Source of the DNA: Gemmatimonadota bacterium
GTDB taxonomy: Bacteria; Gemmatimonadota; Gemmatimonadetes; Longimicrobiales; Gaopeijiaceae
Assembly: GCA_003564295.1 (NCBI GenBank)
Contig: PXFI01000312.1
Span: 1-38,586, forward strand
Length of the DNA: 38,586 nucleotides
Reading direction: 5' to 3'
Part shown: positions 20,890 to 29,300 of the stretch, one piece after another
How the letters are laid out: every line of letters starts with the position of its first letter
How positions within the stretch are numbered: the stretch's first letter is position 1
Program-made: the position numbers and the translations under genes
Notes under the pieces: generated by a model
What the model was told of the DNA's origin: nothing
Seen by the model: only the letters and a program-made list of their open reading frames with translations
Database searches by the model: none

Positions 20890-23649
20890 TCAACCACCAT
20901 CTCTGAGCCTCACCTGCTTGGTGGTGTCATCCAGCGGAACCAGCAATGCCCCCCGTTCCGTGGCGAAGGCATCCACGGGCTGGAACGTCCCCACGCCCGC
21001 CACCGCAGCGGGCTGCTCGATCCGTAGCCGGGCTGCAGTGGTATGGGGTGTAGCCGGCTCGAGGGTCAGAATCACCTGATCTGCTGAGAAGGTGACCGAC
21101 TCGAACCTGCCCGTGTCCAGCGTAAGCCAGAGACCGAGGGGCGCCAGGTAGACCCTGGCCCGCGACGCGTCCCTGGGCTCCACCACTACCGCCTCTGCCT
21201 GTCCCTCGCCCCGTGCACGCACGTTGCCACCGAAGGCCAGCCAGCCCCAATCGGGGTGGCGCACCACGTACGTGCCGGTGTTCACCACGTGCCCGAAGAA
21301 GCCGGGCCCGTTGTCGCCCGAGTACCCGTCGATCTCCAGCGTTTCGGGGAAGGCGTGGAAGGCTGCCGGCAGGAAGCCGTCATACGTCACGTTGGCGATG
21401 GAGCCGAGCACGCCGGCGTAGCCGACCCTGAGCATGTAGATGTCGTCGGGACGATCCCGGTACTCGGTGAGGACCGGAATGGCGTTGAGTCCCGAGCCGT
21501 AGTGGTGAAGCTGGCGCTCGATGCGCCGGAGCTTGCCGGCATAGACAAAATCCCAGTAGCGGCGGGCACTGCCGTTGTATCCCCAGTGGGGAACGGTAGG
21601 CATGTAGGCCAGGATGGCATTCAGCGTCACCATGGCCTTCTCGTCGAAGCCGAAGTAGCGACACCAGGCGTACACCTCCTCCTGTCCGGTGGAGTCCCAC
21701 GGCATCTCGCTGCCGAAGGGGTAGCCCAGCCCGTCCCAGACCTCGGCCCGGGCACGCATGGTGGCCTCGAGGCCCGCTGCCTGCTCGTGCCAGCCTTCAC
21801 GCTTCAGGTCCATGAGGATCAGCACGAAGACCGTTCCCTCCATCTGCCCGAACTGGGCGTAGCGGGGAGCAAGGCGCACCATGGCCTGGCTGGTCTCGTA
21901 GGCCCGGTGGAGGTACCAGTCCCAGTCGTGATTGGTCACCAGGCCCTGGTTGTTGCGGGCCAGGCGGTACAGGACCCAGTGGGCGGCCGCCACGTGGGGG
22001 TAGTTGTAGGACCGGACCACGCTCATGGCCTCCCTGCGGTCCCAGCTCGACCAGCCGCCATAACCGACCTCGGGGCTGTACGTGCCTTCCGGCATCTCCT
22101 CCGGCTCCCAGAAGAACATGCTCTTGCGGACACCGTACCGCAGGTCACCCTCCGAGTACTGGATGCCGCCCCAGAGCACCTCGTCCACGAACCGTTTGAA
22201 CTTGGCCAGCTCCTCCGGGTCCGGCTGGATCAGCTGCTTCATGATAGCGGCGGTCCAGGAGCCGGCTCCGCCCTCGTCGCTCAACCCAGGGATCCAGGCG
22301 CGGTTGTCCTCCGTCACGTGCCGGCGCTCCTCGTAGTCGTAACTGATCACCGAGGGGCTCCGGCCGAACAGATCATCGGGCTGCTCGAACCACTGCTCGT
22401 TGAAGAGGAAGCGGCCCATGTCTTGCACCACCTGCTCCGCCGGCTTGATCACCTTGTAATGGATCGTCTGCCTGCGATCGTCGCCCCAGGTCACGGTCAT
22501 GCGAGCCCGACCCCATTCCCGGCCCCGGACGTCATAAACCTGCCAGCCGGCATCCGTGACGCCCCTCGCCTCCACGGTCAGGGCCCCCGCCGGCTCGACG
22601 TCGATGGAACGCACCGGGTAGTCGTGAGCCAGGAAGAGCTTTGCCTCGATGTCCTTGGGGACCACGTAGCCGGGAATTCCCACCGCCACCGGCCGCCCCT
22701 TGGCCCGGATCGTGTTCTCGATCTCCCGGAGCTCCGGAGCCAGCAGGAAGGCCACGCCGTAGGACCGGCTCTCCCCGGGCCGGAGCGTGAAGCTGGTGGG
22801 AGGATTCCACGGATCCGCCTCACTCCACTCGTTCTCAGCGTATCCCAGACTGTGGGCGGTCCACTCGTAGAAGCCCTCGAACGTCACCGACCGCTGCGTG
22901 GGATCGTCCAGGAGCGGGCGATAGGCCTCGAGCGGAGTATTCTCCATCGGAACCACCAGCAACACCTCACCCAGCCCCGTCAGCCGCACGACCTGGAGGT
23001 AACCGGCATCGCCGCCTATGTACGGATCGTGGAACGACGAAACGGCGTGCGCCTCATCCAGGGACCGGCCCTGCAGAATGTTGTTGAAGACCATGGGTAT
23101 GCCGAGCCCACCTATCTCCACCGGCCGATCCGAAACGTTCGTCAGCTCGAAGCGAAGCGCCAGGTCTCCATCCCGCAGCTCCCAGTACCGCCGCACCCGC
23201 AGGGGAATACCCGACGGCAGTGTGGGACCCAGATCCGCCACCGCAAGGGCCGGAGTCGACGCCGGCAGTTCCTGCACCGGAGCCCGGGCCGCCGCCGTGG
23301 AAAAGTCCTCCCAGGCCTCCGAGCCCACGACACGCAGACGCAGGTTCAGATCCCCCAGGTGGTAGAAACCATCCGCCGACCGCCTCTCCATCCGGTCCGA
23401 GGGCGTGAAATCGAAATCCGGGGCCCCCACCGGCCTCAGCCCCGCAGCCGTCTGCGAGGCCCGCACCAGATCCAGACCGAACGACGGCGTGCTCAAACTC
23501 ACGATGCCCTGCTCCAGTCCCAGACTCGGAACGGGCTGCTCGAGGGGGCGGCTCCGCTCCTGGGCCGGGAGGGGAGCCGACACGAGGGAGACCAAAAGAA
23601 GCGATACGAAAGTGCGGATCATCGCCTTCAAACCGAACTCCCCAACCAT
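20890..23649 (-). CDS. Large secreted protein resembling DUF5695, putative glycosidase
   Basis: This is a 919-residue secreted protein with a signal peptide (IRTFVSLLLVSLVSAPLPAQ). The start is the ATG at 23647-23649, five bases after GGAGG; the frame runs to 23661. Roughly residues 40-330 look like a beta-sandwich (RRYWELRDGDLALRFELTN, GGLGIPMVFNN). Residues 400-750 are rich in aromatic and acidic residues in a helical pattern typical of alpha/alpha-barrel carbohydrate enzymes (YGGWSSWDRREAMSVVRSYN, NHDWDWYLHRAYETSQAMV, GYPFGSEMPWDSTGQEEVY). A C-terminal beta-domain follows. It resembles proteins annotated only as DUF5695. No catalytic pair can be named from sequence. It lies between two PF07944 glycosidase genes, so a role on an arabinose-bearing glycan is inferred from context only. 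Confidence 0.65.
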   Translation of the reverse strand: MVGEFGLKAMIRTFVSLLLVSLVSAPLPAQERSRPLEQPVPSLGLEQGIVSLSTPSFGLDLVRASQTAAGLRPVGAPDFDFTPSDRMERRSADGFYHLGDLNLRLRVVGSEAWEDFSTAAARAPVQELPASTPALAVADLGPTLPSGIPLRVRRYWELRDGDLALRFELTNVSDRPVEIGGLGIPMVFNNILQGRSLDEAHAVSSFHDPYIGGDAGYLQVVRLTGLGEVLLVVPMENTPLEAYRPLLDDPTQRSVTFEGFYEWTAHSLGYAENEWSEADPWNPPTSFTLRPGESRSYGVAFLLAPELREIENTIRAKGRPVAVGIPGYVVPKDIEAKLFLAHDYPVRSIDVEPAGALTVEARGVTDAGWQVYDVRGREWGRARMTVTWGDDRRQTIHYKVIKPAEQVVQDMGRFLFNEQWFEQPDDLFGRSPSVISYDYEERRHVTEDNRAWIPGLSDEGGAGSWTAAIMKQLIQPDPEELAKFKRFVDEVLWGGIQYSEGDLRYGVRKSMFFWEPEEMPEGTYSPEVGYGGWSSWDRREAMSVVRSYNYPHVAAAHWVLYRLARNNQGLVTNHDWDWYLHRAYETSQAMVRLAPRYAQFGQMEGTVFVLILMDLKREGWHEQAAGLEATMRARAEVWDGLGYPFGSEMPWDSTGQEEVYAWCRYFGFDEKAMVTLNAILAYMPTVPHWGYNGSARRYWDFVYAGKLRRIERQLHHYGSGLNAIPVLTEYRDRPDDIYMLRVGYAGVLGSIANVTYDGFLPAAFHAFPETLEIDGYSGDNGPGFFGHVVNTGTYVVRHPDWGWLAFGGNVRARGEGQAEAVVVEPRDASRARVYLAPLGLWLTLDTGRFESVTFSADQVILTLEPATPHTTAARLRIEQPAAVAGVGTFQPVDAFATERGALLVPLDDTTKQVRLRDGG

Positions 23650-23770
23650 GAAATCCTCCATTCTTGAGACCCTTCTCAGGACCCTTGCTCGCCGAGCACG
23701 GTCACAGGGCTGACCGGTATCGCTTCAGTGAACTCCCGGAAGAGGCCCTCCGTCATGGGATAAACCCCGG

Positions 23771-26344: not shown

Positions 26345-29300
26345 CTACACCCGCAGATCCGCCTCCGCCCGTCTCGCTGCATCGACCACGGCGGCTGTCT
26401 GATCTGCTGTCAAGACACCGCGGGCCTCCCACTGCTGGGTGGCCTGTTCCACAGCCGCCATGAACTGGCTGTGGCCCTGGAACGGCGCCTGGTCCCATAT
26501 CGTGTCCAGCAGGGTCAGGCCGTCCGGGCCCCTGGTGTTCTCCACGCCCGAATCGATAGAGCCGAACACCACCGTAGGCTCCCGGCGCCGCAGGTACATG
26601 TGGTACGGCTGGGTGGGCGGCGCCTGTCGGCCCAGCATGGTCGCGTCCGCCGGGTCCGGCATCGGCGGGGCGGGGTCCGCCACATAGAACGGAGCCAGGG
26701 TGAGGCCGTTGGTGGTGAAGTACATGGGCCGATCCGTCGGCCTCATGGCCGGAGCCAGGTCGCCATCAAGCTTCAGATAACGATAGAAGCTGACATGGAT
26801 GAATCCTGTCTCCAAGTCCTCGCCCACGGGGTCTTCCTGCACCGCCAGCATGGTAGGGCCGTAGTACACGGACTGCATCGCCGGATCGTCCAGGGCCCGC
26901 TCCACCCGGAAGCTGAATGGCATGTCGATGTCGATACGGTCGCCGTCCTGCCACCGGCGGCTCACGGTCACGTAGGTGCCGGGCACGGCCTCCAGCGTCT
27001 GGACCTCTCCGTTGATCGCGACCGTGTAGCCCTTACGCACCCACTCCGGCACCCGGAGCTTGATCTCCAGAGGACCGCTCCCGTTGACGATCAGGCGGCT
27101 CGCACCCTCTTCGGGATACCGCGTCTCCTGCCTGATGGCAAAGCCCTTCTCCGGCCACTGGAGGGTCGAGGCAATGTACAGGTTCACATAGAGGGTCGTA
27201 TCGTCCACGGACCGGAAGTAGATGGAATCCTGGTACTTGGTGTGGTTTTCCAGACCGGTCCCGCCACAGCAGGTGCCCGTGTTGCCGTAGCTCCGGCGCT
27301 GGCCGGGACGCACCGGCACGAAGTAGGTGACCTCCGGGCTCACATCGCTGTCCCTGTCCCGGCGGGAGCTCACCATCTGGTTGAAGAGGGCGAGCTCGTA
27401 GTAGTTCATGTACTTCGGGTCAGCTGCATGGAAGAACAGGTTGCGGCTCAGCTTCAGCATGTTGTAGACGCAGCAGGTCTCGGCATGGTTGCGTTCGGCA
27501 AACAGCAGACCCGCTATCACACCCCTGGCCCGGAAGATCTCGCCTACGCCCATCCCGCCATGGCTGTAGATCCGGTGAGGCACTACCATGTTCCAGAAGT
27601 TTCGGGTGGCGGTGTACAGCTCTCCCCGCTCCCCCTGCTCGTACGCCCGCAGGTAACCGGTAAACTGGGGGATGTGGGTGTTGGCATGGCGGCCGTCCAG
27701 CCTGTCCTCGTCGGCCAGGGCGGGGCCATAGACGTTCATGTTGACGAACCGATCGGCGGCCTCAAGATACCGCTGCTCGGGCCGGAGGGAATGAAGCTGA
27801 GCCAGGCTCTCGTTGACGCCACCGTACTCCCCGGCGATGTAGATGTCCCACATCCGCTCGAGCTGCTCCGGCGGCAAGGGGCCCACACGGGTATGGACCC
27901 AATCCCCGATGGCGGCCACAATATCCAGTGCCTGCTCGTTCTCCGCATGGACGTAGGCATCGAGCAACCCGGCCATAATCTTGTGGAGCGTATAGTACGG
28001 CGCCCAGATCCCCTGGTTGTCGCCATAGGGGGCGAACTCCTCGATCCGTATGAACTGTGTCTCCGGGTAGGCGGAGAGGAAGCCGGGGTGACGTGCACCA
28101 TCGTTGGGGCCGATGATGGTTGCATCACGCCCATTGCCCGAAGAGTCCACCGCCGTGGGACCGCCATCCTCGTCGAACCGGTACCAGGCCACATCACCAC
28201 CGCCAGCGCTGCCGCCGGCAGAATCCAGCAGTGAGCGAACCTCGTCCGCCGTGAGGGCGCGGCTGTAGATCTGGAACTCATCCAGCGACCCGTTCAGGTA
28301 CGAGATGTTACGCTGCGGGAACTGGTGCCGCCCCAGCCAGTTGCCGCTGGTGAAACCCAGGTCCGCCGGGGACAGTGTCATCTCCGGGTTGGTGGCAACG
28401 GGCTCCCCGTTCACGTACAGCGTACCCGTGTTCCCCGACCGCGTGACGGCGATGTGGGTCCACCGGTCTGTGGCAAGGGGGGTAGTGCCCTCGAGGGCTT
28501 GCTCGCCCGCCCTGCCCGTTGTGGTGATTGCAAAACGCGGCACCGGTCGCTCATTGGACGCCCGCACCGTCAAGAACATCTGAGAGAGAGGCGGCTCCGC
28601 ATACTCCGGGTTTGGCCTGCCGAAGTTGAAAACCGCCGCATAGTTGGTCAGGGCTATAGGCTCCGGGCGCGCATGGGGCAACTCAGAGGGGTCGTTGACC
28701 GACGGCCGGATCCAGCTGGCAATGGTGAAGTCCCGCAAACCGCTCACGATGCCTTCTGGAAGACGGACGTGCTCCATGTGTCCGACGGGGGAGCCCGTCA
28801 ACCGGAGTGCGCCACCGTGACGACCAGTAACCCGGGGCGTGGGCTGGCTTGCCGCAGCGGCCAGGGCGGCCTGGCATTCGCCCAACGCACTCACCATGTA
28901 ATCCAGTTTCTGCTTGTACACCGGGTCACCGGTGCCAGCATACGCCTGGGCCAGCATGCTCAGAAAATGGCCCGCATAATGACCACGAAGGTAGCCTGAG
29001 GCGCTCTCCCAACTCCCCACGGGCTGCGCACCACGGGTGTCAAGACCCGCAGTGGCCCTGAAGATGCTCAACAGACGGTCCGGGCCAGCATACACGTCCG
29101 TGGCGCTGCCATAATTGCGGGCATACCCCAGCATGCGGTCCTGCTTCTCACGGAACAGGCCCTCGCCCAGCCTGACCTGATTCAGCCGGAACGGACGCAC
29201 AGACCAGCCAGCCTCCGCAGCAGCAGCAGCCTCGCCGACGAGGCCACGGTTGGGTACACACCCCAGGTAGGGATACACAGCCACTCCTGCCGTCATGGCA

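Follow-up and report, generated by a model that had tools for sequence, protein, structure and literature searches.

A LamG-type domain of apparently permuted strand order nested in the barrel of a putative GH146-like beta-L-arabinofuranosidase

How can a complete second domain sit in the middle of an enzyme barrel, and from where did such a domain acquire strands in an unusual order? These questions are raised by P0001, a protein encoded in a 38,586-nucleotide stretch of a Gemmatimonadota genome (assembly GCA_003564295.1, contig PXFI01000312.1; hereafter the window). P0001 matches both GH127 profiles, the catalytic domain PF07944 and the middle domain PF20736, and in Pfam the catalytic match is split into two stretches with Laminin_G_3 (PF13385) between them (residues 215-392, E value 1.4e-24, 87.4 bits versus a curated cut-off of 27.6). 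An initial annotation, made from the sequence alone, had placed a break of about 250 residues in a GH127-like barrel at positions 28090-28840 and had read the intervening sequence as a LamG-type domain, apparently circularly permuted. We find the break after LGECQAAL (residues 177-184) and before HPGFLSAYPE (from residue 442), at window positions ~28091-28846, where a single LamG domain of ~250 residues (residues ~190-441) splits the GH127/GH146 barrel. Joining the two flanks in silico yields one unbroken GH127 catalytic match, covering profile positions 1-376 of 376. One paralogue in the locus had been noted as uninterrupted at this site, and this holds for both P0004 (EVQDAHGDGYLVAL) and P0006 (LVQAQHGDGFIAAI). 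Streptomyces homologues, most with 52-55% identity, also lack the insert, and their site is bridged by a short linker (LGECQRALAEHGSPRPSHPGYLAAYPE). The features are listed in Table 1; the window gave no match to Rfam.

Table 1. Positions of P0001 and its parts in the window, with the corresponding residues
Feature	Window positions	Strand	Residues	Remarks
P0001 gene	26345..29413	minus	1022 codons from GTG	True start may be internal; encodes a signal resembling twin-arginine translocation (TAT) signals, a GH127/GH146-type barrel with nested permuted LamG, and beta-sandwich domains
GH127/GH146 barrel, part 1	28850..29191	minus	75-188	Ends ..LGECQAALAAAA
LamG body (standard positions 41-218)	28220..28843	minus	~191-398	Placed first; ends DEFQIYSRALTADEVRSLL
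Gly-rich linker SAGGSAGGGD	28193..28225	minus	~397-407	Connects old C-end to old N-end
Relocated opening segment VAWYRFDEDGGPTAVDSSGNGRDATIIG	28109..28192	minus	408-435	Standard positions 13-41, placed last
Barrel, part 2	27224..28090	minus	442-730	Restarts at HPGFLSAYPE
Catalytic and zinc residues	27266..27541	minus	E625, E645, C647, C715, C716	E625 acid/base; C715 nucleophile
GH127 middle domain	26918..27196	minus	740-832	Pfam

In the standard strand order, the segment carrying WYxFDE..DSSGNG stands ahead of the LamG body. The P0001 insert departs from this order: its opening segment (VAWYRFDE..DSSGNG..ATIIG, residues 408-435) trails the body and comes after the closing segment DEFQIYSRALTADEV. 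A standard LamG profile of 220 positions, built from 12 standard-order LamG domains in the genomes of relatives, met the insert as two swapped blocks: the front block covers positions 41-218 (162 bits), and the back block covers positions 13-41 (21 bits; conditional E value 1.5e-6). The opening segment by itself, used as a profile, matched P0001 at residues 408-435 with 34.5 bits, while the best of 300 shuffled sequences reached 3.0 bits with the whole profile and 6.1 bits with the opening profile. When the last segment was moved to the front by script, the two blocks became one collinear match of 194 bits spanning positions 13-218. The reciprocal test gave the mirror result, as a profile built from the inserts meets standard domains as swapped blocks: on L101, profile positions 200-240 fall at residues 73-113 and positions 21-204 follow at residues 114-290. 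The solved standard domain 4qvs is swapped too, although its opening block reaches no more than 0.8 bits. By alignment, the new ends of the permuted domain lie in the turn between ..ATIIG and GRHGGAL.., where standard domains have a short loop. Together, these profile comparisons support the interpretation of the insert as a circular permutation of a standard bacterial LamG_3 domain, and the reading of its strand order in the initial annotation holds. Because the PF13385 profile begins after the opening strand, the rearrangement is invisible in annotation. It had further been argued that permutation would bring the termini together and so suit insertion into a loop. The new ends do appear to face each other across a short turn, but the ends of a standard LamG are, by the same premise, also expected to be neighbours, and the argument therefore does not discriminate between the two forms.

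Structure prediction supports one discrete domain. AlphaFold2 modelled the isolated insert with a predicted local distance difference test (pLDDT) score of 90.4 and a predicted template modelling (pTM) score of 0.91, and full-length P0001 with 86.1 and 0.86; neither two partial units, nor a standard order, nor absence of the domain was seen. Over 567 residues, the full-length model can be aligned with the GH146 structure 8qf8 (BtGH146; Z 42.8, root-mean-square deviation (rmsd) 2.2), and the barrel is therefore predicted to be undisturbed around the insert, which in this model aligns with pentraxin folds at Z ~21. Residues ~7-249 of the insert model align collinearly with pentraxins, the LG domain of PAPP-A and 4dqa (Z ~20), and the modelled strand order thus has precedent in these proteins. 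The closest fold by rmsd is domain 4 of AbnA (5hon; 1.8-1.9 Å over ~170 residues), which aligns with insert residues 1-209 only. The insert is thus pentraxin-like in strand order and bacterial LamG-like in sequence. Pentraxins and the PAPP-A domain share its order (collinear over ~180-205 residues, Z ~17-21), but they are animal proteins with 12-20% identity among the matches listed and are not nested in glycosidases; with E values up to 1 allowed, Pfam listed laminin-G models for P0001 and no pentraxin family model. Standard LamG_3 domains such as 4qvs and AbnA domain 4 belong to the same sequence family as the insert, but 4qvs carries its opening segment at the N-end, while AbnA domain 4 aligns only with the insert body and is the C-terminal domain of AbnA rather than a nested one.

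The same arrangement recurs in other genomes. Three phyla were sampled, Gemmatimonadota (with the whole-protein query only), Actinomycetota and Bacillota. In the first genome scan, all 41 insert-bearing homologues were permuted (41/41), and carriers were found in Gemmatimonadota and in Actinomycetota including Glycomyces, Lentzea, Actinoplanes, Micromonospora and Jiangella. On a tree of the host barrel, presence and absence of the insert require three changes; with the more distant GH127 homologues and a Eubacterium row as outgroup, these would be one gain and two losses (in Streptomyces and in L087), which favours a single gain of the insert in this subfamily followed by later losses. The Gemmatimonadota rows fall within Actinomycetota, beside Glycomyces, and the gene was found in only 2 of 298 Gemmatimonadota genomes; horizontal transfer into Gemmatimonadota is therefore likely. 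The genome that carries P0001 holds one LamG_3 domain only, and a local donor of the insert was rejected. Among 200 relatives in a plasmid collection, none covered at least 80% of the query in one place, and no insert-bearing plasmid copy was recognised. In a Symbioplanes GH127 gene (L087:6979), an in-frame deletion has removed all of the nested LamG but its two edges (GGALQLTGDGRDAAVVTG); this stub could reflect decay of the insert or a fault in the assembly.

The permuted domain is not confined to GH127 proteins. Across 395 genomes of Actinomycetes, the insert profile gave 68 strong matches (E values up to 1e-45) in 34 genomes, of which 42 lie in GH127 proteins, 24 are permuted domains in other proteins and 2 have the standard order. 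Thus, 66 of the 68 strong matches are permuted, versus 0 of 7 in 299 Bacillota genomes. It should be noted that order and host were assigned by match span and context in a count of our own, that few candidates were scored per genome, making these counts lower bounds, and that 2 of the 24 lie at contig edges with one flank visible. The additional hosts are CBM6 sandwiches of ThuA/GSDH proteins, ricin trefoils and a small glycosidase sandwich (L105, L106 and L200). In three ThuA/GSDH multidomain proteins (L176, L187 and L205), the permuted LamG splits CBM6 at profile position ~80, and joining the flanks restores a match to profile positions 2-123 of 125, with a score of 61.6 bits instead of 43 bits. 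Relatives of the host glycosidase with an empty site are continuous in sequence there (TTTPPGQTGLDGFASYD). In L188, a GH43-ricin protein, the permuted LamG is likely nested in the edge of the trefoil. The site of the permuted LamG differs among members of the L105 glycosidase family (L195, L196 and L197), some of which carry it in the sandwich of the glycosidase and others in a ricin trefoil attached to it. All hosts share one cut point, with matches running from profile position ~15-27 to ~239-245. The standard-order relatives examined, a subset of which was checked for nesting, stand at protein ends or between domains. Three Bacillota GH127 proteins (L202-L204) bear terminal LamG domains on both sides, with the standard order throughout. 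A survey of GH127 proteins had been proposed, and its outcome reaches further than anticipated: in soil bacteria, the same rearranged domain lies nested in at least three additional, unrelated types of host domain, and it looks like a natural plug-in module. However, the permuted domains are related, and the link between order and nesting therefore does not represent independent events.

What might the domain do in P0001? The enzyme is nearer to GH146 than to GH127, both by sequence (E value 2e-82 to 5opj, GH146, versus 3e-15 to 4qjy, GH127) and by fold (Z 42.8 and 34% identity versus Z 38.5 and 20% identity). Its barrel and sandwiches resemble those of BT0349/BtGH146 (5opj, 6yqh and 8qf8) and Bll3HypBA1 (8k7x and 8k7y), with Z 36-43 and 31-34% identity. 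Residues E645, C647, C715, C716 and E625 align with E723, C725, C804, C805 and E694 of Bll3HypBA1, so that a Cys3-Glu zinc site, a Cys nucleophile and a Glu acid/base are present, and these are invariant or nearly so across the aligned homologues; further residues important in Bll3HypBA1 (at W135, E529, H576, N578 and Y474 of P0001) are conserved as well. W470 and Y474, just past the insert loop, align with the active-site residues I522 and Y526 of Bll3HypBA1, and the insert is therefore expected on the active-site face. Bll3HypBA1, like P0001, has LamG domains, but the LamG or jelly-roll parts of both Bll3HypBA1 and BT0349 are terminal, whereas that of P0001 is nested in the barrel. In Bll3HypBA1, activity towards larch arabinogalactan is increased 5.8-fold by the N-terminal LamG (PMC10850190), and domain 4 of AbnA binds arabinan with a Kd of ~8-11 uM (PMC9110388), which together suggest a substrate-binding module. 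The surrounding genes (window 2157-31837) encode L-arabinose isomerase AraA, an FGGY kinase, an aldose epimerase, an SSF transporter, an alpha-L-arabinofuranosidase, a LacI regulator, a SusC/SusD-like pair (the SusC-like label of P0005 comes from reading its sequence, not from a profile), a DUF5695 protein and four GH127-family proteins. This is an L-arabinose utilisation cluster, a context that agrees with P0001 as a putative beta-L-arabinofuranosidase. Given the arabinose locus, the conserved catalytic residues and the arabinan-binding closest fold, the most likely role of the insert is to bind substrate next to the active site. The DUF5695 protein P0003 (window 20890-23661) is a near full-length match (1282 bits) flanked by GH127 genes, and in Bacillota, LamGs of standard order that are close to the insert occur in two DUF5695 proteins (L114 and L201), suggesting a common glycan role.

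Based on these findings, we consider the following account probable. P0001 would be a secreted GH146-like beta-L-arabinofuranosidase serving the arabinose locus, with one LamG-type lectin domain in the barrel loop that leads to W470 and Y474. By sequence, the seam lies at standard position ~41, the old ends being connected through the short Gly-rich linker and the new ends meeting across a short turn. Such a unit most likely arose once, by out-of-register excision from a tandem LamG pair, and would then have been reused in Actinomycetota as a plug-in within other host domains; one of these insertions would have founded this enzyme subfamily, Streptomyces would have lost the insert later, and the Gemmatimonadota copies were likely acquired by horizontal transfer. 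The insert most likely binds an arabinose-containing glycan and holds it at the rim of the active site. The tandem route is plausible because linker lengths are similar: permuted domains have a median of 12 residues between closing and opening segments (range -1 to 16), and genuine tandem junctions have 3-8. Several points weigh against this account. On the LamG core tree (71 rows), which is poorly resolved at depth, permuted and standard rows are separated by three changes; an approximately unbiased (AU) test did not reject a single permuted clade (p = 0.30), and one origin is permitted rather than demonstrated by this tree. It was used in place of a FastTree of the LamG cores, in which four standard-order domains fell among permuted ones with weak support. 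Similar linker lengths are the single line of evidence for the tandem route, the position of the insert relative to the active site depends on residue mapping, and the host tree is a quick search that carried long-branch warnings.

Other histories can explain part of the same observations. Separate origins, in which out-of-register pieces of tandem LamG arrays were inserted independently in each host, would accommodate the three changes on the core tree and the tandem arrays with similarly short junctions in the same genomes; we nevertheless think this unlikely, as the cut point is identical across hosts and a single permuted clade survives the AU test. Less likely again is that the insert is a bacterial pentraxin-type domain in its original order, from which the standard LamG order was derived. 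The collinear pentraxin, PAPP-A and 4dqa alignments speak for it, and PTX3 too is picked up by sequence with the permuted profile, but that match scores 36 bits against 150 bits for 4qvs; standard-order bacterial LamGs are much nearer by sequence (~160-220 bits for body and opening segment), and the standard order is found in the strongest Bacillota relatives and in several GH127-linked ones.

The role of the domain is open to a competing reading as well, since it could be a structural lid or spacer without sugar binding of its own. Non-homologous elements cover the active site in other GH127/GH146 enzymes, where BT0349 uses a C-terminal jelly roll and Bll3HypBA1 a loop (PMC10850190), and Streptomyces homologues manage without the insert; yet the module is nested in binding modules too (CBM6 and ricin) and not only beside active sites, and its standard-order relatives are terminal appendages of glycosidases, which leaves the lid an improbable alternative to glycan binding. 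Although the source genome is fragmented and incomplete (369 contigs), we give practically no credence to an assembly error or a chance resemblance, as the frame is open without stops and the arrangement is repeated in dozens of independent genomes, including isolates; these genomes refute an artefact of either kind. Within the preferred account of a permuted, glycan-binding plug-in, we tentatively raise a stronger claim, for which the case falls somewhat short of even: that the domain was permuted once and then inserted repeatedly into unrelated folds since permutation itself confers insertability, as in engineered insertions of permuted domains.

Our search of the open-access literature returned nothing relevant on LamG insertion in GH127, permuted LamG, domains both nested and permuted, or permutation between pentraxin and ConA-like folds. 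Fold, strand order and enzyme family all have precedent; within the literature searched, the nested reuse of the permuted form is new. These data indicate that annotation with the PF13385 profile can conceal a rearrangement of strands. The presence of nested permuted domains in several hosts, alongside related unpermuted versions at protein ends, would offer a direct test of the link between permutation and insertability. Overall, we suggest that the permuted LamG marks glycosidases and lectins of Actinomycetota that have a built-in, putative binding module.
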